DNA of 64,000 nt from Rhizobium viscosum (GTDB taxonomy: Bacteria; Pseudomonadota; Alphaproteobacteria; Rhizobiales; Rhizobiaceae), in NCBI RefSeq assembly GCF_014873945.1, contig NZ_JADBEC010000001.1, forward strand, positions 3,489,001 to 3,553,000. The letters are read 5' to 3'. The notes beneath the pieces are model-generated. The model was not told the DNA's origin, did no database searches, and saw only the letters and a list, made by a program, of their open reading frames with translations. Below, one piece after another: positions 53,764 through 64,000 of the stretch. Both the position numbers and the translations under genes were made by a program. Within the stretch, counting starts at the first letter, position 1. Every line of letters starts with the position of its first letter.

Positions 53764-54762
53764 TTATAGACTGGCCTTGACCTTCTCGGCTATATCGGCC
53801 GGAACCCAGCGGCTCCAGAGCTCCTCGTAATTCTCAAGGAAATAGAGGGCTGCATTCTCATTGTCCTCGCCATTTTCATCCTGCCAGGCCAGCACCTGGC
53901 TGATGGTCTCGTTGTCCCAGCTGCGGGCGTTCAGATAGTTCATGATCGGGCCGGCGCGATCGGCGAAAGCCCTGGTCATCATCGTGAAGGCCTGCGACAC
54001 CGGATAGGCGTTCACCCTGGGATTGGCGCAATGAGGCACCGAGGTGCAGGCGTTCCATTCGGCCTCATCGTGCGGAACGCCGAAGCCCAGCTGTTTCATG
54101 TCGTATTTGCCGATGACCGATGTCGGCGCCCAGTAATAACCGAGCCAGCCGACCTTGTTTTCGAAGGCGCGGGCAATCGAACCGTCGAAATCCTTGGGAG
54201 TCCGGCTGTCGACCAGCGCAAAGCCGAGCTTGTCGGCATCAAGCGCCCTGAAGAGATTGCTGGTCGAGATCTCGCAAGCCCAGGCTTCCGGGCAATTATA
54301 GACGGCCGCACGCGAGGGATCATAGGTATCGGGAAAGAGTTCCGGGTGTTTCAGCGCATCCTGGACGGAACGAATATCCGGATTTGCGTCGGCGATGAAT
54401 TTCGGGATGTACCAGCCTTCAACCGCGCCATCCGCAAGAATTTCGGCGCCCTTGACCAGCCGGCCGGCGCTGATGGCGGCATCGAGCTGCGGCTTGACCG
54501 CCTTCACCCAGAATTCCGAGGCGATATCGGGCGTGCCGGTGCCATCCATGGAAGCGAAGGTCGGCAGCGTATCGCCATCGACGATGGTGACGGAGCAGCC
54601 GTAGCCCTTTTCCAGGATGAATTTGTCGAAGCTCGCTGCAATGGCGGCAGAGCCCCATCTCATCTCGGCGATCGAGACGTTGCCGCAGCCGGCAGCTTGC
54701 GCCTCCGCAATTCCGGCATAAAAACAGACCGCAAGGATGAATGACGAGAAAAATGTCTTCAT
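53764..54762 (-). CDS. Glycine betaine/choline-type ABC substrate-binding protein
   Basis: The 332-residue protein begins at MKTFFSSFILAVCFYAG, a Sec signal peptide, behind GGGGAA. The mature chain matches OpuAC/ProX-type binding proteins: AEMRWGSAAIAASFDKFILEKGYGC, TGTPDIASEFW, GWYIPKFIADANPDI and an aromatic-rich GWLGYYWAPTSVIGKYDM likely to cage a quaternary amine. No permease or ATPase genes adjoin, so it is an orphan that may feed a transporter encoded elsewhere. An upstream frame to 54975 lacks a start signal. Confidence 0.85.
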   Translation of the reverse strand: MKTFFSSFILAVCFYAGIAEAQAAGCGNVSIAEMRWGSAAIAASFDKFILEKGYGCSVTIVDGDTLPTFASMDGTGTPDIASEFWVKAVKPQLDAAISAGRLVKGAEILADGAVEGWYIPKFIADANPDIRSVQDALKHPELFPDTYDPSRAAVYNCPEAWACEISTSNLFRALDADKLGFALVDSRTPKDFDGSIARAFENKVGWLGYYWAPTSVIGKYDMKQLGFGVPHDEAEWNACTSVPHCANPRVNAYPVSQAFTMMTRAFADRAGPIMNYLNARSWDNETISQVLAWQDENGEDNENAALYFLENYEELWSRWVPADIAEKVKASL

Positions 54763-55422
54763 TATACGTTCCCCGAAATTTTTATGTGATCGAACGCGCA
54801 TGCACCGGGCAATTAGCCGACAAATCTTTTCGCCGCTGCAGGTGCTAATCGCCCGAGAATATGGCTTCACCGGGTTTTTCCTGTGTGCGGCGCCGTTCGT
54901 CTGGTTTTCCGGCGGCTCGTCGCTGGCCATTTCTGTCGATGGCTTACTATGAGCAAACCTACGGATTTGCTGCAAGAAATCAACTCTCCTTTCCGTGTTG
55001 TATCTGTAACTAAATTATTGAATTCGAAGAATTTATGCCCGCAGTTCATGAAGCTGCGGCTTGGAGTGCGATTGACGGAAATGCACGCTCGCGGCGAGGG
55101 TGAAAGCGGTTCCAAGTGAGTGAAAATCGGAAAAGTTCAAAAAAAGTCGAATTTTGCCTCCGGTTGGGCCTTCAATAACCATCCGGTAAGAATGTGCCGT
55201 TATCTGTTGTGACGCGGCGGGGGACAACCGCTGCTTTTCCGGATCAGGTGCTGCGTCCCGGAAAAAGCGAGCTTCATTGTGTAATGATGAAGGCGTCAGC
55301 GTTTTATGGCAAACCGCGTAGGGTTTATGGCCCGATCGCGGTTTTCGCGTTTCTGGCCCTCTGTTGACCGCGTGTCCACCCGCATTGTAGGCCTGCCGGA
55401 AATACTTCACGGATAGGCGCCA
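54763..55422. other. 660-bp intergenic stretch before cobQ
   Basis: No gene can be supported here. Three short frames on both strands lack Shine-Dalgarno sequences and known families. No B12-riboswitch core was found, so cobQ seems to have a different control. Promoters for cobQ and the divergent binding-protein gene are expected. Confidence 0.6.
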
Positions 55423-56877
55423 ATGACCAAATCCATCATGCTGCAGGGAACCGGCTCGGATGTCGGCAAGACGGTGCTGGTGGCGGGGCTTTGCCGGCTG
55501 GCGGCCAATCGCGGCTTGAGGGTGCGGCCCTTCAAGCCGCAGAACATGTCGAACAATGCGGCGGTTTCCGACGATGGCGGCGAGATCGGCCGGGCGCAGT
55601 GGCTGCAGTCGCTTGCGGCCCGTACGCCATCATCGATGCATATGAACCCGGTGCTCTTGAAGCCGCAGTCGGAAAACGGCAGCCAGATCATCGTGCAGGG
55701 CAGGGTGTTCGGGCAGGCGAAGGGGCGCGACTATCAGCGGCTGAAGCCGCAGCTCATCTCTTCCGTGCTGGAGAGTTTCGCCAAGGTGTCCGAGGGTGCC
55801 GACCTCGTCATCGTCGAGGGGGCGGGGTCACCCGCCGAAATCAATCTCAGGGCCGGCGATATCGCCAATATGGGCTTTGCGACGCGGGCGAACGTTCCTG
55901 TCGTTCTCGTCGGCGATATCGATCGTGGCGGCGTGATCGCCTCGCTTGTCGGCACGCATGCAATCCTTTCCGAAGACGACCGCAAGATGATCTCGGGTTA
56001 CATCATCAACAAGTTCCGCGGCGATGTAAGCCTGTTCGACGACGGCATTACATCCATCGGGCAGTTCACCGGCTGGCCCTGCTTCGGCGTCGTGCCCTGG
56101 CTGAAGCCGGCCGGACGGCTGCCCGCAGAGGATTCCGTCGTTCTGGAGCGGCTAGCCAAAAGCGAGCGAGGGGCGCTGAAGATCGCCGTGCCGGTGCTGC
56201 CGCGCATTGCCAATTTCGACGATCTCGATCCGCTACGGGCCGAGCCTGATGTCGAGCTCGTCTTCGTGCGCGCCGGCGAGCGGCTGCCAGCCGATGCAGC
56301 GCTCATCATCCTGCCGGGCTCGAAATCCACCATATCGGATCTCGCCGATCTCAGGGCGCAGGGATGGGACCGCGACCTTGCCGCCCATATGCGCCGCGGC
56401 GGCCGGGTGATCGGCATTTGCGGCGGCTACCAGATGCTCGGCCACAGGGTGTATGACCCGCTCGGCATCGAAGGTACGACGACAGAGATCGAAGGGCTTG
56501 GCCTGCTCGATGTCGAGACGGAGATGGCGCCGGAGAAGACGGTGCGCAACAGCGCTGCCCATTCAGCGGAATATGATGTGCCGCTATCAGGCTATCAGAT
56601 CCACCTCGGCGTCACGCAAGGGGCCGATTGCGAACGGCCGGCGGCGATCGTCGACGGCTTGGCCGATGGGGCGGTTTCGGCCGACGGCCGGATCATGGGC
56701 ACCTATCTGCACGGCCTCTTCGGCAGTGACGCTTACCGCGCCCGGCTGCTTCAAAGTTTTGGCCTCTCAGGCGAGGGCGGTAACTACCGCGAGAGCGTCG
56801 ATCGGGCGCTCGACGAGGTCGCAGGCGGCCTGGAACAACATCTCGACCCGCGCTGGCTTGCAGGGCTGCTCGGCTAG
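55423..56877 (+). CDS. cobQ: Cobyric acid synthase
   Basis: The 484-residue enzyme amidates adenosyl-cobyrinate a,c-diamide at four side chains using glutamine and ATP, late in cobalamin synthesis. The N-terminal P-loop domain has GTGSDVGKTVLVAGLCR (residues 6-22), and NNAAVSDDGGEIGRAQ, and the C-terminal type I glutamine amidotransferase has GICGGYQMLG (nucleophile Cys) and the catalytic His of GTYLHGLF. It lies apart from the riboswitch-controlled cobP-cobW-cobN operon 3.6 kb downstream but serves the same pathway. Confidence 0.96.
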   Translation: MTKSIMLQGTGSDVGKTVLVAGLCRLAANRGLRVRPFKPQNMSNNAAVSDDGGEIGRAQWLQSLAARTPSSMHMNPVLLKPQSENGSQIIVQGRVFGQAKGRDYQRLKPQLISSVLESFAKVSEGADLVIVEGAGSPAEINLRAGDIANMGFATRANVPVVLVGDIDRGGVIASLVGTHAILSEDDRKMISGYIINKFRGDVSLFDDGITSIGQFTGWPCFGVVPWLKPAGRLPAEDSVVLERLAKSERGALKIAVPVLPRIANFDDLDPLRAEPDVELVFVRAGERLPADAALIILPGSKSTISDLADLRAQGWDRDLAAHMRRGGRVIGICGGYQMLGHRVYDPLGIEGTTTEIEGLGLLDVETEMAPEKTVRNSAAHSAEYDVPLSGYQIHLGVTQGADCERPAAIVDGLADGAVSADGRIMGTYLHGLFGSDAYRARLLQSFGLSGEGGNYRESVDRALDEVAGGLEQHLDPRWLAGLLG

Positions 56878-56912
56878 GCCTGCGTTCATCGGCACCGCTC
56901 CGCTATTGCAAA

Positions 56913-56935
56913 ATTAGTTGACTGAGTCCATTAAT
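56913..56935. promoter_or_regulatory. Palindromic operator upstream of the SDR gene
   Basis: The 23-base palindrome around TTGACTGAGTCCA pairs at 9 of 11 positions each side, centred at 56924. It shares the core TTGACTGAGTC with the MarR-GNAT operator at 5301-5323 and lies 38 bases before the SDR start. Confidence 0.55.
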
Positions 56936-56972
56936 TATTGTTGCAACGCACCCAGTCGAGAGCGATGAAACC

Positions 56973-57743
56973 ATGAGCATATTGGATAGATTTTCACTTG
57001 CGGGCCAGGTGGCGCTCGTGACCGGCGGCGGCCGCGGCCTGGGCTTCGAGATGGCACATGCACTTGCCGAGGCCGGCGCGCATGTCATCGTTACCGGGCG
57101 CACGGCGGCGACGCTGGAAGATGCCGTAAGGACCGTCCGCGCCGCCGGCGGCACGGCGCAGGCCGCCGCATTCGACATTGCCGACCGAGAGGCCCAGCGT
57201 GCGCTGATGGCCGACATCGAAAAGATCCATGGCCGTCTCGATATCCTGATTAACAATGTCGGCGCCCGCGACAGGCGGCCGCTGGCCGAATTCGACGACG
57301 ATGCCATCATCGAATTGCTGCGCACCGATCTGGCCGCTGCGATAACGCTTTCGCGCGACGCAACCGTGCTGATGAAGCGGCGCAATTACGGCCGCCTGAT
57401 TGCCGTGACCTCGATCAGCGGCCATGTCGTCATGCCCGGCGACTGCGTCTATCCGGCGGCCAAGCAGGGCCTGACCGGCCTGATGCGTGCCATGGCGGTC
57501 GAGTTCGGCCCACACGGCATCACCAGCAACGCGATTGCGCCCGGCTGGTTCGCCACCGAGACGAACGCGGCGATGGCTGCGAACGAGGAATTGATGCCCT
57601 TCGTGCGCCAGCGCATCCCCGTCCAGCGCTGGGGCCGCCCGGATGAGATTGCCGGCGCGGCGCTGTTTCTTGCAAGCGGTGCCGCCTCCTTCGTCAACGG
57701 ACACATCCTGACCGTCGACGGTGGCATGACGGTCAGGATGTGA
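56973..57743 (+). CDS. Short-chain dehydrogenase/reductase, gluconate 5-dehydrogenase type
   Basis: The 256-residue classical SDR has cofactor motif TGGGRGLGFEMA (residues 15-26), NNVGARDRRPL, the catalytic Ser-Tyr-Lys in SISGHVVMPGDCVYPAAKQG (Tyr and Lys of YPAAK) and the C-terminal FVNGHILTVDGGMTV. Sequence style resembles Gno/IdnO-type gluconate 5-dehydrogenases, but substrate specificity is not proven. Its upstream palindrome shares its core with the MarR-GNAT operator, suggesting shared control. Confidence 0.88.
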   Translation: MSILDRFSLAGQVALVTGGGRGLGFEMAHALAEAGAHVIVTGRTAATLEDAVRTVRAAGGTAQAAAFDIADREAQRALMADIEKIHGRLDILINNVGARDRRPLAEFDDDAIIELLRTDLAAAITLSRDATVLMKRRNYGRLIAVTSISGHVVMPGDCVYPAAKQGLTGLMRAMAVEFGPHGITSNAIAPGWFATETNAAMAANEELMPFVRQRIPVQRWGRPDEIAGAALFLASGAASFVNGHILTVDGGMTVRM

Positions 57744-57774
57744 GCGGAGATTCTTGCGGCGTGCGGCAAAAGCC

Positions 57775-59568
57775 TCAGATCTCGCCTGAGACCTCGCGGC
57801 GGCGGCGGTCGAGTTCTTCGCTGTAGCGGCGCAGCGTGTGGCTTTCGCTAAGCTGGCCGATCACCTTGCGCTCGATGAGGTTGTTGACGACGGCGAGCGC
57901 TTCGCTTTCCGTCTTGTCGAAGATCGCGGCCGCCTGTTTGGCGTTCATCTGTGGCTGCAGGAAGTCGTTTTTATAGCGAATGAAATCGCCAAGATTCTGG
58001 GCTTCGTCCTGCGCGCTGGTGGGGTTGGCGTAGATTTCCGGCACGAGCACGAGGCCGGCATATTTGTCACCCTCATCGACGAGGATGACGCGCTGCGTCG
58101 AGCCGATGGGGAAAGCCTCCTTGAAGGCGTCCATCGTTATTCCAAGTTTTGCGGTCTTCACGTCTGATCGCATCAGCTTGTCTACGGTCAGGTTGCGGAT
58201 CCAGCCGACATCATGGGCGCTGCGGATGCTTTCGCCGCGCAGGTGAAAGCGCCATGTGGCGAAGGAGTAGCCGAAGGTGGTGCGCACCACGAGCGAGGAG
58301 GTGATGACGGCGGCGAGCACCAGGGCGGTGATCGGGAAGTCGCCGGTAATCTCCAGCGCCAGGAAGGTCATGGTCAGCGGCCCGCCGATGACGGCGACGG
58401 CGAGCGAACTCATGCCGACCACGGCATAGATCACGGGCGTCAGCGTCGCATCGGCGAAATAGGGGGCGGAATAGGCAAACAGCTTGCCGAGCAGGGCACC
58501 CATGAAGAGCGATGCGAAGAACAGGCCGCCCCTGAAGCCGGAGCCGATGGAGACGGCTGATGCCACCGACTTCAGAAGGAAGAGGCCGATCAGCGCGGGA
58601 ATGGTGATCTCATGGGCGAGGTTGAGATGCAGCGCGCCGTGACCGGCGGCAAGGACCTGCGGCGAGACCAGCGCCAGCAAGCCGACGACCAGGCCGCCGA
58701 GCGCCGGGCGAAAGGGCAGCGCGATGGAGCTCTTGCGCGCCAGTTCCTCGACGAAGGAGACGCCCTGCATGATGAGGATGCCGATGCCGGCGCAGAAGGC
58801 GCCGAGGGCGATCGCCGGGACGTAGTCGGCGGGCTGGACAGCGCCGAAGCTGCCGACATCGATGATGAAATCGCTGCCGGAGAGCAGTCGGGCGACCAGG
58901 GTAGCGACGAGGGCTGCGACGACGACAGGCGTCAGCGAAATGATGGTGTAGGTGCCGATGATCAGCTCGAAGGCATAGAAGGCACCGGTCAGCGGCGCAT
59001 TGAAGGCGGCGGCGATGGCGCCGGCCGCGCCGCAGCCGACGAGGACGCGCATGTCGGAGCGGCGCAGCTGAAGCTTCAGGCCGAATTTCGAGGCGATGCC
59101 GGCTGCGAGCTGCGTATAGCCGGCCTCCAGTCCGACGGATGCGCCGAAACCGTTGGAAACGAGATTCTGGATGGCGACGAGGATGCTGTCGGTCAGCGAC
59201 AGGCGGCCGCCATGCAGGGCATTGGCCTCGATCGGGTCGACCATCGGCTTCTTGCGCCATTTGGCGAGGATGAAGATCAAGAGGCCGAGCAGCATGCCGC
59301 CGGCAACCGGGGCGGTCATCAGCAGGAACTTGCTGTCGATCTCAGAGGCGCTGAGCCTCGTCGTGCCGTCTATGCCGAAGATCAGGCTGTGCATCTCTTC
59401 CGAGACATAGCTCATGGCGGTGACCGCAAGCCCCGATACGATGCCGACAAGCGCGCCGGCAAAGACCATGCCCATTTCGCTGTGGCGGATGAGCGCGCGC
59501 ATGCGTCCCGGATCAAAGACGGTGCCAAGAGGGCCGAGGCGGCGAATATCCATTCGGGAGAGCATCAT
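57775..59568 (-). CDS. ClC-family chloride channel/transporter with CBS pair
   Basis: The 597-residue protein has the CLC core (residues about 30-430): the gating-glutamate motif GASVGLEAGYTQ, NAPLTGAFYAFEL, and the late GSGFRGGLFFASLFMG, then a CBS-domain pair (about 455-570). By family it is a Cl-/H+ exchanger or channel of the inner membrane, helpful in acid resistance or charge balance. CBS domains suggest nucleotide control. It lies between the SDR and the cobalamin riboswitch on the opposite strand. Confidence 0.92.
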   Translation of the reverse strand: MMLSRMDIRRLGPLGTVFDPGRMRALIRHSEMGMVFAGALVGIVSGLAVTAMSYVSEEMHSLIFGIDGTTRLSASEIDSKFLLMTAPVAGGMLLGLLIFILAKWRKKPMVDPIEANALHGGRLSLTDSILVAIQNLVSNGFGASVGLEAGYTQLAAGIASKFGLKLQLRRSDMRVLVGCGAAGAIAAAFNAPLTGAFYAFELIIGTYTIISLTPVVVAALVATLVARLLSGSDFIIDVGSFGAVQPADYVPAIALGAFCAGIGILIMQGVSFVEELARKSSIALPFRPALGGLVVGLLALVSPQVLAAGHGALHLNLAHEITIPALIGLFLLKSVASAVSIGSGFRGGLFFASLFMGALLGKLFAYSAPYFADATLTPVIYAVVGMSSLAVAVIGGPLTMTFLALEITGDFPITALVLAAVITSSLVVRTTFGYSFATWRFHLRGESIRSAHDVGWIRNLTVDKLMRSDVKTAKLGITMDAFKEAFPIGSTQRVILVDEGDKYAGLVLVPEIYANPTSAQDEAQNLGDFIRYKNDFLQPQMNAKQAAAIFDKTESEALAVVNNLIERKVIGQLSESHTLRRYSEELDRRRREVSGEI

Positions 59569-59786
59569 GGGGAAACTAGGCGGCAGGAATGAGGGTCAAG
59601 GGCGGAGCCGGCATCCGCATGAGCGGCAATTGCGGCAAAATACCGACTGGCCCGTAAAGTTTTTGTGACGTAAGCCTTTGATTAAAGACGATAATATCGG
59701 TAGTGTAAGTCGAGATGAACATGGGCGGGACGCTGCGCGGCAATTGACATGGGGGTTGCACGCGCCTAACCATGAATCCACATAAT

Positions 59787-60150
59787 GGATGGTTCCGGAT
59801 CGGCTAACGCCTTCCGGATGAAAAGGGAATGTGACGGGGCGGACCCAAGCCGGGCGCCTTTATCACAGCCGACCCCGCGACTGTAGAGCAGTAAGGGTCT
59901 TCCATCCGGCATTTTAACCGCCGCGCCGACGGTTTTGCATTCTGCAAGCGGGCAAGGCGGACAAGTGCCGGAAAAGCCACTGGAAATGCATCGTGATCAG
60001 CCGGGGCAGGACGCCTCTAATTCTACGAATCGTCCGCCTTTTCACGAGATGCAGCCGGGAAGGCGAGGCAGATCCGCTGGCACGATCAGGGGCGACCGTA
60101 ACGGGTCGCCCCGGTCGGGGCCGTTAGCTGCGAGCCAGGAGACCTGCCGT
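59787..60150 (+). ncRNA. Cobalamin (B12) riboswitch
   Basis: The leader contains the conserved blocks of the B12-riboswitch in order: GGTTCC at 59791, AAAAGGGAATGTG at 59821, GACCCCGCGACTGTAGAGC at 59871, GCCACTGG at 59976, GCCGGGAAGGCG at 60054 and the B12-box GAGCCAGGAGACCTGCC at 60132-60148. Spacing between 59983 and 60054, and between 60065 and 60132, is far longer than in typical members, so large peripheral stems are inserted. It should repress cobP-cobW-cobN when adenosylcobalamin is abundant. Possible platform hairpins lie at 60155-60190. Confidence 0.85.
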
Positions 60151-60300
60151 CCGTGCCGGGCATAATGCCCAATCTGGGCGTTTTGCCCGCTGCCAGCACG
60201 GAGGTTGTCTTGGCTGAAGGATTTGATTCAGCGCTGCCTCCGGTGGTGCGATATAGTGGCGACGGCAGTGCGGTGCTTTTGGCCTCGTGCGTCGAGTATG

Positions 60301-60460
60301 TGGTACCCCCCTCTGTCCTGCCGGACATCTCCCCCACAAGGGGGGAGATTGAATCGCGGCGACGATCTCCCCAAACAATTGATGTAAGGCGATGGTCTCG
60401 CCTCTTGCCGATCTCCCCCCCTTGTGGGGGAGATGTCCGGCAGGACAGAGGGGGGTACCA
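60301..60460. repeat. Long palindromic repeat element, copy 1 (riboswitch-cobP gap)
   Basis: The arms 60301-60349 and 60411-60460 are reverse complements with a single-base length difference (6 versus 7 in a G/C run), enclosing a 61-base loop. It lies between the B12 riboswitch and the cobP start. The same ~45-base arms occur in cobN at 62675-62825. The loop is about 80 percent alike when the second copy is inverted. No transposase gene is present. Confidence 0.9.
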
Positions 60461-60488
60461 CACCCTCCGCTGCAAGAGGCGTCTGCGC

Positions 60489-60998
60489 ATGACCACCACC
60501 CTCATCCTCGGCGGCGCCCGTTCCGGCAAATCCCGCTTTGCCGAAAATCTCATCACCACAAGCGGCCTCGAGCGCCATTACATCGCCACCGGCCGCGCCT
60601 GGGACGACGAGATGCAGGCGCGCATCAATCAGCACAGAGCCGATCGCGGCCCATCCTGGGCCACGCATGAGGAACCGCTCGATCTCGCCGAGCGCCTTGC
60701 CGCCATTGACGCGGAGGGCAGAGCAATCCTCGTCGATTGCCTGACGCTGTGGCTCACCAATCTGATGATGGAGGGGCGCGATATCGCCGCCCAGTCCGCC
60801 GCCCTTGCTGCCTTTCTGCCTGACGCAAAGGCGCGACTCGTCATCGTTTCCAATGAAGTCGGCCTCGGCATCGTGCCTGAGAACCGTATGGCACGCGAGT
60901 TTCGCGACCATGCCGGTCGGCTGCACCAAATGATCGCGGCAACTGCCGACGATGTCTATTTTATCGCGGCAGGCCTGCCGCTGAAAATGAAGGGTTAG
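60489..60998 (+). CDS. cobP: Adenosylcobinamide kinase/guanylyltransferase
   Basis: The 169-residue enzyme (CobP/CobU) phosphorylates adenosylcobinamide and then transfers GMP, preparing it for lower-ligand attachment. The P-loop GGARSGKS is at residues 8-15, followed by [21 protein letters not shown] with the GMP-accepting His, and [12 protein letters not shown] and [21 protein letters not shown]. The start ATG at 60489 gives the standard N-terminus; an upstream frame from 60153 runs through the palindromic repeat and is ignored. It is first in the riboswitch-controlled operon and is followed by cobW after 4 bases. Confidence 0.95.
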
Positions 60999-61002
60999 TT
61001 CG

Positions 61003-62049
61003 ATGCAGCAGAAAATTCCCGCAACCGTCATCACCGGCTTTCTCGGCGCCGGCAAGACGACCATGATCCGCAACCTGCTCACCAATGCTGGCGGCAAGAA
61101 GATCGCACTCATCATCAACGAGTTTGGCGATCTCGGTGTGGATGGCGACGTGCTGAAGGGCTGCGGCGCGGAAAACTGCACCGAGGATGACATCATCGAG
61201 CTCACCAATGGCTGCATCTGCTGCACGGTGGCCGACGATTTCATTCCGACCATGACCAAGCTTCTGGAGCGCGATCAGCGCCCCGACCATATCGTCATCG
61301 AGACCTCGGGCCTTGCCCTGCCGCAGCCGCTGGTCGCGGCCTTCAATTGGCCGGATATCAGAAGCGAAGTCACCGTCGATGGCGTCATCACCGTGGTCGA
61401 CAGCGCCGCTGTCGCCGCAGGGCGTTTTGCCGATGACCACGATGCCGTCGATGCGCGTCGCGTCGAGGATGCATCGCTCGATCATGAAAGCCCGATCGAG
61501 GAGCTTTTCGAGGATCAGCTGACCTGTGCCGATCTCATAGTGCTCAACAAGACCGATCTCATTGATGCTGACGGCCTCGGCCGCGTGAAGAGCGAAGTCG
61601 CTTCGCGCATCGCCCGCAAGCCTGTCATGATCGAAGCGAAGAACGGCGAGGTGCCGGCAAGCGTGCTGCTCGGCCTCGGCATCGGCACGGAGGACGATAT
61701 CGGCAACCGCAAGTCCCATCACGAGTTGGAGCATGAGGACGGCGAGCCGCATGATCACGACGAGTTCGACAGTTTCGTCGTCGAGCTCGGTGCGATCGCC
61801 GATACGGCCGCATTCGTCGAGAAGCTGAAGGGCATTATTGCCGAGCATGATGTGCTGCGCCTCAAGGGCTTCATCGATGTCTCGGGTAAGCCGATGCGCC
61901 TGCAGCTGCAGGCCGTGGGCGCCCGCATCGACCAGTATTTCGATCGCGCCTGGGCGCCGGGTGAAGCGCGCAGCACGCGCCTCGTCGTCATCGGCCTGCA
62001 CGAGATGGATCAGGACGCGGTGCGCAAGGCGATCGAAGCGCTCGTCTGA
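61003..62049 (+). CDS. cobW: CobW-family GTPase of cobalamin synthesis
   Basis: The 348-residue protein has a G3E P-loop GFLGAGKTT (residues 12-20), the metal-binding motif CICC in NGCICCTV (around residue 76), IETSGLALPQP, NKTDLID and a His-rich segment SHHELEHEDGEPHDHDEFD around residues 230-250, then a CobW_C domain. CobW is thought to supply cobalt to the cobaltochelatase. It is four bases after cobP and eight before cobN, consistent with one operon. Confidence 0.95.
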   Translation: MQQKIPATVITGFLGAGKTTMIRNLLTNAGGKKIALIINEFGDLGVDGDVLKGCGAENCTEDDIIELTNGCICCTVADDFIPTMTKLLERDQRPDHIVIETSGLALPQPLVAAFNWPDIRSEVTVDGVITVVDSAAVAAGRFADDHDAVDARRVEDASLDHESPIEELFEDQLTCADLIVLNKTDLIDADGLGRVKSEVASRIARKPVMIEAKNGEVPASVLLGLGIGTEDDIGNRKSHHELEHEDGEPHDHDEFDSFVVELGAIADTAAFVEKLKGIIAEHDVLRLKGFIDVSGKPMRLQLQAVGARIDQYFDRAWAPGEARSTRLVVIGLHEMDQDAVRKAIEALV

Positions 62050-62057
62050 GGTAAACA

Positions 62058-64000
62058 ATGCATCTGCTTCTCGCTCAACAGGGAACGATCAGCGATGGCG
62101 ACGAGGCGATCGACCTCGGCCAGTCGCCGGGCGATATCCTGTTCCTGTCGGCCGCCGATACCGAGCTTGCGGCGATTGCCGCGGCTCATGCCGGCGGGGC
62201 GATGGGGTATTCGCTGCGGCTTGCCAGCCTGATGAGCCTGAAGCATCCGATGTCGGTCGATACATACGTCGAACGCACGGCGCGGCATGCGAAGCTGATC
62301 ATCGTGCGGGCGCTCGGCGGGGCGAGCTATTTCCACTATGTGCTGGAGGCGCTGCATGCAGTTGCAGCGCGGAATGGTGTGCTGATTGCGGTGCTGCCGG
62401 GGGATTCCAAACCGGATGCGGGGCTGACGCCGTTTTCGAATGTGGCGCTGGAGGATCTGAATGCGCTGTGGGCGTATCTGATCGAGGGCGGCGACGCGAA
62501 TGCGCGGGGTTTTCTGGCCTATGCGGCGGCGATGCTCTCGGGCGAGGAGAAGCCAGCGCCGGCTGCACCGCTGATGAAGGCGGGGATCTGGTGGCCGGGG
62601 CGGGGGCTGGTTGGCGTTGATGAGTGGCGGCGGCTTATCTCCGCTTCGCCCTCTTCGGCTGTTGAGGATGTAGCACCCCCCTCTGTCCTGCCGGACATCT
62701 CCCCCACAAGGGGGGAGATCGACAAGCGGCAAGACCACCGCTCTACATCTGTTGTTTGGGGAGAAGCTCGCGGCGATTCAATCTCCCCCCTTGTGGGGGA
62801 GATGTCCGGCAGGACAGAGGGGGGTATTGCACACTCGACGGCCGAGGGTGCAACCGTCCGCCCAACTGTCGCCATCGCCTTCTACCGTGCCCTGGTGCAG
62901 AGCGGCGAAACCCGCCCCGTCGAAGCCTTGATCGAAGCTTTGCAGGCGCAAGGCCTACGCCCATTGCCGGTCTTCGCCTACAGCCTCAAGGATCCCGTCT
63001 CCAAGGGCATCCTTGAAACCATTTTCGCCGATCTCAAACCCGACGTCGTCATCAACACGACAGGCTTTGCCGTCTCTGCACCCGGCGCCGATCGCGAGCC
63101 GACCGTGCTGGAAACGAATGACGCGATCGTACTGCAGGCCATCTTTTCCGCTTCGTCGCGGGAGGCCTGGGCCGCCTCGTCGCAGGGGCTCTCGGCCCGC
63201 GATCTCGGCATGAATGTCGCGTTGCCGGAGGTGGATGGCAGGGTGCTGTCGCGCGCCGTCTCCTTCAAGGCTGCCGCCCGCTATGATGCCGCGGTCGAGG
63301 CCAATATCGTCTCCAGCGAGCCGGATGCCGGGCGCATGGCCTATGTGGCATCGCTTGCCGTCAACTGGGCGCGGCTGCGGCAGATGCCGGCGGCGAACAG
63401 GCGGGTTGCGCTCGTCATGGCGAATTATCCGAACCGTGACGGACGGCTCGGCAATGGCGTCGGCCTCGATACGCCGGCCGGCACGATCGAGGTGATGCGG
63501 GCGATGGAGAAGGCCGGTTATCCGGTCGCCGATATCCCTGATGATGGCGATGTGCTGATGCGGCACCTGATGGCGGGGCCGACCAATTCCGGCTTCGATG
63601 GCAAGGTCGTGCGCGAGACGCTTTCCCTGAATCGATATAAGGATTTCCTGGAATCTCTTCCTGCTCAGATTCAGGATGAAGTCAGCGCGCGCTGGGGTGC
63701 GCCGGAGGCCGATCCCTATGTCCGCGGTGGCGCTTTCGCGCTGCCTTTCGCCCGGTTCGGCGAGTTGCTGATCGGTATTCAGCCGGCACGCGGCTATAAT
63801 ATCGATCCGAAGGAAAGTTATCACTCGCCCGATCTCGTGCCGCCGCACGGCTATCTCGCCTTCTACGCTTTCCTGCGCGAGGAATTCGGCGCGCAGGCAG
63901 TGATCCACATGGGCAAGCACGGCAATCTGGAATGGCTGCCGGGCAAGGCGCTGGCGCTGTCGGAAGCCTGTTATCCCGAAGCGATCCTCGGGCCGCTGCC
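62058..64000 (+). CDS. cobN: Cobaltochelatase subunit CobN (3' end outside window), with in-frame palindromic insertion
   Basis: The gene starts MHLLLAQQGTISDGDEAIDLG and remains open for 647 codons to the window end. CobN is the large subunit of the CobNST complex, which inserts cobalt into hydrogenobyrinate a,c-diamide. Family landmarks include ALGGASYFHYVLEAL, PTVAIAFYRALVQSG, LVMANYPNRDGRLGNGVGLDTPA, LLIGIQPARGYNIDPKESYHSPDLVPPHGYLAFYAFL, and IHMGKHGNLEWLPGKAL. Residues about 206-256 are encoded by the repeat at 62675-62825 and look foreign to the family (low complexity, not aligning with CobN). The frame is kept through it. Confidence 0.95.
   Translation, partial: MHLLLAQQGTISDGDEAIDLGQSPGDILFLSAADTELAAIAAAHAGGAMGYSLRLASLMSLKHPMSVDTYVERTARHAKLIIVRALGGASYFHYVLEALHAVAARNGVLIAVLPGDSKPDAGLTPFSNVALEDLNALWAYLIEGGDANARGFLAYAAAMLSGEEKPAPAAPLMKAGIWWPGRGLVGVDEWRRLISASPSSAVEDVAPPSVLPDISPTRGEIDKRQDHRSTSVVWGEARGDSISPLVGEMSGRTEGGIAHSTAEGATVRPTVAIAFYRALVQSGETRPVEALIEALQAQGLRPLPVFAYSLKDPVSKGILETIFADLKPDVVINTTGFAVSAPGADREPTVLETNDAIVLQAIFSASSREAWAASSQGLSARDLGMNVALPEVDGRVLSRAVSFKAAARYDAAVEANIVSSEPDAGRMAYVASLAVNWARLRQMPAANRRVALVMANYPNRDGRLGNGVGLDTPAGTIEVMRAMEKAGYPVADIPDDGDVLMRHLMAGPTNSGFDGKVVRETLSLNRYKDFLESLPAQIQDEVSARWGAPEADPYVRGGAFALPFARFGELLIGIQPARGYNIDPKESYHSPDLVPPHGYLAFYAFLREEFGAQAVIHMGKHGNLEWLPGKALALSEACYPEAILGPL
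62675..62825. repeat. Long palindromic repeat element, copy 2, inside cobN
   Basis: The arms 62675-62719 and 62781-62825 are perfect 45-base reverse complements around a 61-base loop. It matches the copy at 60301-60460 with its loop in the opposite orientation. It adds an in-frame stretch to CobN without a stop codon; both strands of the copy read as open frames. Confidence 0.9.

Follow-up and report, generated by a model that had tools for sequence, protein, structure and literature searches.

Palindromic repeats of several families lie in frame in two loops of CobN in Rhizobium viscosum and its relatives

Two loops of the cobaltochelatase subunit CobN contain in-frame palindromic repeats, which belong to several families and come and go between species. 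One such repeat, a 151-bp element, lies in cobN of R. viscosum, within a 64,000-nucleotide stretch of DNA (contig NZ_JADBEC010000001.1, positions 3,489,001 to 3,553,000) whose whole length we refer to as the window. Our preferred reading, to which we give a probability of roughly 0.83, is that MITE- or REP-like palindromes were repeatedly inserted in cobN and filtered to the copies that keep the frame and lie in tolerant loops. The evidence comes from the element and its copies in the same genome and from CobN of relatives. A set of tRNA 3' ends also occurs at one of the two loops.

The element in cobN and its copies in the genome

The element at the first of the two loops (site 1) spans positions 62675-62825 of the forward strand, at about residues 206-256 of the protein. 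A first-pass annotation of the window had described a 151-bp element with perfect inverted arms of 45 nt, and these can be read directly in the sequence: a sequence read and a repeat search place the arms at 62675-62719 and 62781-62825, both on the forward strand, around a centre of 61 nt. In the repeat search the pairing extends imperfectly outward, to 79-nt arms at 84%. The very strong mid-coding hairpin that the annotation foresaw was borne out by folding. RNA of 62665-62835 reached -128.9 kcal/mol versus -65.0 (sd 4.0) for shuffled sequence (z -15.95), and 0/200 dinucleotide shuffles folded as well. A search of 54000-64000 for a known RNA family that would account for the hairpin gave only a cobalamin riboswitch at gathering score, and a family scan with E up to 1 over loci L001, L002 and L204 gave the riboswitch and one sub-threshold ALIL match only.

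The open reading frame that starts at 62058 runs through the element in frame and without a stop, as the annotation had it, and the full gene encodes 1377 aa. The window holds the 5' part of cobN (62058-64000, forward strand); the gene continues to the equivalent of 66191, and its complete form is L003:2559-6692. Its product scores 1720.6 bits against the CobN model TIGR02257 (cut-off 822) and is CobN by Pfam too. Upstream of it on the same strand lie the riboswitch (RF00174, 59773-60165), cobU/cobP (Pfam CobU, 60489-60998, start codon read by eye) and cobW (61003-62049). The annotation had estimated some 50 added residues that do not look like CobN; their non-CobN character stands, but the addition is larger. 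The site-1 loop has 93 residues versus 36 in the uninserted CobN of R. ruizarguesonis (L100), a gain of 57, and the gain is 69 relative to PDB 9uk9, so that the difference exceeds the 50 residues for which the 151-bp core accounts.

A genome search with the element returned 92 matches, which merged to 36 places. Three of these have the 151-bp core in common: the site-1 element, a second in-frame element in the same cobN beyond the window (equivalent of 64490-64640, G000:C1:3553490-3553640), and a non-coding copy at 60305-60456 on the reverse strand. This third copy, between the riboswitch and cobU/cobP and upstream of the cobU start, is the one that the annotation had placed outside genes 2.2 kb upstream. 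The three copies are 89-91% identical to one another in the better orientation, whereas their best matches among the other own-genome copies reach at most 79% over their length (comparison of 23 loci, with three on contig C3 left out); the cob locus thus has its own element subfamily. The site-1 copy aligns best with the other two when it is reversed. It is also reversed relative to the element at the same site of Rhizobium sp. BK316 (L107:5603-5753), which could reflect either an independent insertion or flipping between the arms. Across the genome, 26 of the 36 places lie within G000:C1:3549305-4225725, that is, in 0.68 Mb of 7.07 Mb.

Coding palindromes are not private to CobN in this genome. 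Reading of ten own-genome ORFs that span a copy, in line with the genome-wide check that the annotation had proposed, showed that at least four of the 36 places are in-frame copies in conserved genes: the two in cobN, which thus holds 2 of the 4 found, one in ribD (G000:C1:508881-509058, L025; TIGR00326, matched in two stretches) and one in ftsY (G000:C1:2129084-2129306, L027; TIGR00064), where it sits in the variable N-terminal region, ahead of the domain that the model matches. By eye, and among loci that were not picked at random, a clear palindrome peptide is present in 3/10 ribD and 3/6 ftsY loci of relatives. In one ftsY (L270) the insert is apparently duplicated. We also considered coding copies on plasmids and set them aside: among 55 plasmid records with a match, the best place had no annotated feature in 47, and the other 8 were unannotated, in a PLSDB gene table that is incomplete.

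Inserts in CobN of related strains

For comparison among relatives we defined site 1 as the loop before VAIxFYRA and site 2 as the loop between SLQRAIAxD and FDPLD. The first CobN set consisted of 80 loci, the best 80 of 590 in a scan, and is therefore biased to inserts. In an even family sample, 130 of 151 genomes gave a match; from the 81 others whose CobN is close (roughly 60% or better), 80 were fetched, the sample excluding G084, which has two split points, and 48 genomes with more distant best matches. Dropping 9 identical and 2 short rows left 150 distinct proteins, own CobN included. With a long insert defined as at least 25 aa above the median loop length, 43 of them carry one at site 1 and 60 carry one at site 2; 35 have both loops filled and 68 at least one, in this partly biased set. 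In the even family sample alone the fraction with a long insert at either loop is 23/79. Use of the two loops recurs across Rhizobiaceae. Alignment of related CobNs had been proposed as a check, with a conserved segment shared by all of them as the outcome that would speak against an inserted repeat. Instead, 82/150 lack long inserts at both loops, and the carriers have inserts of different, unlike repeat families.

On a 1266-residue reference the long inserts fall at 187-212 (45 proteins), at 746-758 (60) and at 457/458, the last in one protein and the only case outside the two loops among the 150 CobNs at the 25-aa threshold. Near this third position (reference 455-458), L171 and L179 are inserted at a lower threshold, and the L179 insert is palindrome-derived. 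Within the genus, each of 120 sampled genomes gave a CobN match; the tally of best rows listed has 28 without a large insert and at least 84 with one or more. Among the matches listed, 5 have an insert at site 1 only, 39 at site 2 only and 40 at both (4 of them near contig edges), with 1 contig-edge case and 7 unresolved. Two genes of the window served as controls. One, a mechanosensitive-channel gene of 933 aa, gave an unbroken match in 60/60 genomes. The other encodes 856 aa; 11 of its 12 close orthologues were likewise unbroken, and 1 was matched partially.

Near relatives with nearly identical flanks differ at site 2, which is filled in L031 and L032 and empty in R. anhuiense (L051) and R. 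ruizarguesonis (L100). R. leguminosarum Norway (L037) and BK316 carry a second family (B) there, and own CobN the first. Site 1 of L051 has an apparent arm remnant. By peptide signature we distinguish several unlike insert families, among them [82 protein letters not shown] and others; two insert peptides gave no hit to NCBIfam models up to E 10. The DNA of the inserts folds far more strongly than expected by chance: z is below -4 in 84/105 long loops versus 0/105 control windows of the same length from the same genes, and below -2 in 100/105 versus 1/105. Without five genomes counted twice, these fractions are 75/95 and 91/95.

We placed the insert states on a FastTree phylogeny of 115 CobN cores, out of 161 rows from which 37 were dropped for want of anchors, 7 as duplicates and 2 as short. 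Presence and absence change at least 22 times at site 1 and at least 25 times at site 2; when family states are counted, the minimum rises to 30 and 39. The different families, the empty sisters and these changes argue against one old inherited domain, and on the tree changes we rejected vertical inheritance of a single domain as a general account.

In 159/160 loci CobN is a single open frame, with contig ends truncating four; the exception, L059, is broken at an insert. Openness by itself says little about selection, because the elements have about twice the expected number of open frames: in 28 own-genome copies 94/168 frames are open versus about 42 expected from shuffles that keep two-base blocks. 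We therefore did not take an open frame as proof. The matched lengths of 30 full own-genome copies, which are alignment lengths rather than exact element ends, are distributed among the three residue classes modulo 3 (12, 11 and 7), and on these sequence comparisons selection is the most likely reason why the frame stays open in CobN. Among 20 further loci of the genus, picked partly for short frames, 9 are intact, 7 broken, 2 cut by contig ends, 1 without a match and 1 internally shortened. The breaks lie only at an insert in L190, L191, L192 and L196, at an insert and elsewhere in L195 and L202, and elsewhere in L197, so some strains may do without CobN, or there are sequencing errors; breaks within inserts may be either real mutations or errors of sequencing or assembly. 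The shortened gene, L194, still reads as an open frame, of 775 aa, but is missing reference residues 231-753, from site 1 to site 2, through either recombination between two repeats or an assembly collapse. Apparent frame breaks in L036, L055, L072 and L089 were artefacts of joined matches.

The annotation had supposed that a loop of CobN accommodates the element, and mapping on structures agrees. Own CobN aligns to PDB 9uk9, an annotated CobN that has neither insert, in three blocks (1-186, 268-806 and 864-1367), which places the inserts between 186/199 and 744/746 of 9uk9. The models show each of the two as disordered: residues 198-265 at site 1 (model of 1-760) and 807-865 at site 2 (model of 640-1377) have pLDDT below 50 and no secondary structure. 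The two AF2 models are modest, with mean pLDDT of 70 and 65 on 18 and 16 sequences, and each has other low-confidence stretches; the first resembles the solved CobN 7c6o (Foldseek E 4.9e-42).

tRNA 3' ends at site 1

In R. ruizarguesonis, 32 nt of cobN at site 1 (L100:5608-5639) correspond in antisense to the last 32 nt of its own tRNA-Met, with 31/32 identities. A 20-nt core pattern, at one mismatch or fewer, occurs in that genome only at cobN site 1 and in tRNA-Met. We built a tRNA library of 43 sequences, kept of 47; the four dropped as false were predictions t2 and t46, which lie within cobN, and t0 and t45, whose source was cobN loci. Against this library there were 23 matches at site 1 with E up to 0.5, and 21 of them are antisense and reach the last 15 nt, versus 7/64 matches elsewhere in cobN (L046 and L180 are the same sequence in these counts). 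A reversed library, still including t0, t2, t45 and t46, gave 10 hits at E up to 0.05, 0 in the window. Depending on the species, the tails are those of tRNA-Met, a second CAT-anticodon tRNA, Ser-TGA, Ser-GCT, Gly-TCC and Arg-TCT (E 0.001-0.004), and perhaps of Trp, over 19 nt that stop short of the tRNA end. For cobN of G246 the match to tRNA-Met, as found in the R. viscosum genome and in G160, is 32/32. Antisense tRNA 3' ends also occur at site 1 in L192:4215-4246 and at other cobN loci. Eight matches start at CCA, and all begin 15 codons before FYRA. Across 152 distinct cobN genes there are 8 occurrences of an exact T-arm motif, all but one of them at site 1. Library matching found no tRNA tail at site 1 of the window's own cobN.

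tRNA-like matches of such strength also occur elsewhere in cobN: near own residue 918 there are six matches to the anticodon arm of tRNA-Pro at E below 1e-4, none of them a 3' end, and a further search gave more. At that position in L003:5311-5334, 24 nt match the tRNA-Pro(TGG) anticodon arm in antisense (23/24), perhaps by chance; similar matches occur in several relatives. It is a tentative reading, somewhat short of even odds, that site 1 is a true DNA-capture site at which palindromes and, repeatedly, different tRNA 3' ends in antisense were turned into protein sequence, all complete tRNA copies stopping at the CCA and at one common codon. If so, capture there would need a site-directed or RNA-templated process. 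As to how the tails arrived, break-repair capture and recombination at tRNA attachment sites are guesses. Elsewhere in the genome, one tRNA 3' end occurs twice on one strand 5 kb apart (G000:C1:1287177-1287200 and G000:C1:1292160-1292183), as would the flanks of a small integrated island.

Origin of the inserts and comparison with known repeats

Under our preferred reading, a MITE- or REP-like palindromic repeat with many copies in the genome would have inserted into cobN. Its GC-rich arms are unusually stop-poor, so about half of the element frames can be read through. Insertions would presumably have struck many places, those that broke a needed enzyme being lost. The two CobN loops accept 25 to about 150 extra residues, and frame-keeping copies could therefore survive in CobN, later to be replaced, to decay or to be lost. 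We infer that the elements are mobile, that CobN probably stays active with its inserts, that the inserts are neutral, and that tolerance rather than targeting sets the insertion sites. That most of one genus carries inserts at these two loops would also be compatible with targeting or a benefit.

Targeted insertion would make both loops hot spots at the DNA level, whether by a preferred target or by a fragile or attachment-like site, with tolerance secondary. Repeat families and tRNA 3' ends, several of each, occur at one place, and this points that way, as do the common start of the eight CCA matches and the private subfamily formed by the two inserts and the nearby third copy. Against this, ribD and ftsY show that other loops are hit too, the exact point of insertion within a loop shifts, as judged by eye, by several codons from species to species, and a non-systematic look noticed no recombinase or target motif; we regard targeting as somewhat unlikely. 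Retention for a function, be it tuning of cobN expression by the mRNA hairpin or service as a linker in the protein, is more doubtful still. The fold of -128.9 kcal/mol in a coding region and an insert at one or the other site in at least 84/120 genus members speak for it, but the inserts vary in sequence, family and length, with frequent changes along the tree, sister species and 82/150 CobNs go without a long insert, and both inserts of own CobN are modelled as disordered.

The two remaining explanations we consider very improbable. Similar family-A inserts at site 2 of L030, L031 and L032 are what an old, vertically inherited CobN domain would give, and local inheritance among close species is likely; yet near relatives differ at that site, with family B in L037 and L107 and nothing in L100 and L051, and the tree, with its minimum of 22 and 25 changes, sits poorly with an old domain. 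Several things would fit an assembly artefact or a pseudogene: sequencing through palindromes is difficult, some relatives are broken at their inserts, and in several draft genomes the match ends near a contig end at the insert site. Such an error is, however, hard to square with 1377 open codons, with conserved CobN flanking both inserts, and with open frames in 159/160 loci.

Coding palindromes now extend from the small genomes of Rickettsia to the large ones of rhizobia. If repeated insertion with filtering is right, one enzyme with many separate natural insertions at two loops, open to comparison, amounts to a natural experiment in insertion tolerance, in which repeats become protein. The tRNA tails in one of these loops point toward a capture process that is poorly understood. 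There is a warning here for annotators: within CobN, sequences like [15 protein letters not shown] and GEGFEPPT derive from repeats and tRNAs. The first-pass annotation knew of no such case in rhizobial CobN, and a search of the open-licence literature likewise found no description of coding palindromes in CobN or in rhizobia.

Integrative elements use tRNA 3' ends as attachment sites, and with them a tRNA 3' end is copied outside its gene. Unlike these, the tRNA tail in CobN is antisense within a coding loop, with no integrase or island seen in the gene. The site-1 element has MITE features, namely terminal inverted repeats and a length too short for a transposase; we identified no transposase, and a comparison by eye of empty with filled sites, where the boundary lies within G runs, gave no clear target duplication. 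Excerpts of one account describe GTAG/CGTC REPs as palindromes inside ORFs of several species, with units of 20-40 bp, some clusters encoding 43-82 residues, many hits in DNA-repair genes, and different REPs at about the same recB site in two Xanthomonas species (PMC3733652). The CobN-type elements likewise lie in ORFs, with different repeats at about the same site, but they are longer (about 151-178 bp), and among the three cob copies GTAG stands, by eye, beside the left arm of the site-1 copy only, short of the terminal GTAG or CGTC of REPs. Rhizobia have dozens of repeated intergenic sequences, some palindromic, among them RIME, Sm repeats, and AB and C palindromes (excerpts of PMC2573895 and PMC2245857); these are described as intergenic, unlike the in-frame CobN elements, which may nonetheless be among them. 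Intragenic ERIC and Correia elements are small mobile repeats whose ORFs are fused in frame to other genes (PMC2229807, excerpts). In-frame fusion, as described, likens them to the CobN elements; they belong to other bacteria and have other sequences.

The likeness to the coding palindromes of Rickettsia, which the annotation had drawn, is apt: the repeat lies mostly outside conserved genes, yet it is in frame in CobN. According to excerpts of two papers, Rickettsia palindromic elements measure about 105-150 bp and are partly intergenic and partly in frame in conserved genes, and one product that bears such an element, guanylate kinase, was reported to be active (PMC2229807, PMC10969869). The CobN elements share with them a long palindrome of about 100-150 bp and in-frame positions in conserved genes alongside copies outside. 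They differ in residing in large GC-rich Rhizobiaceae genomes, and in that several families converge on two loops of one enzyme, with tRNA 3' ends in one of these loops. By analogy, the CobN elements would work like Rickettsia palindromic elements and intragenic REPs, the likeness being one of manner. Protein evolution by such repeats in other prokaryotes is called conceivable in the excerpted text of PMC10969869, and the inserts in CobN look like a clear case of it outside Rickettsia.
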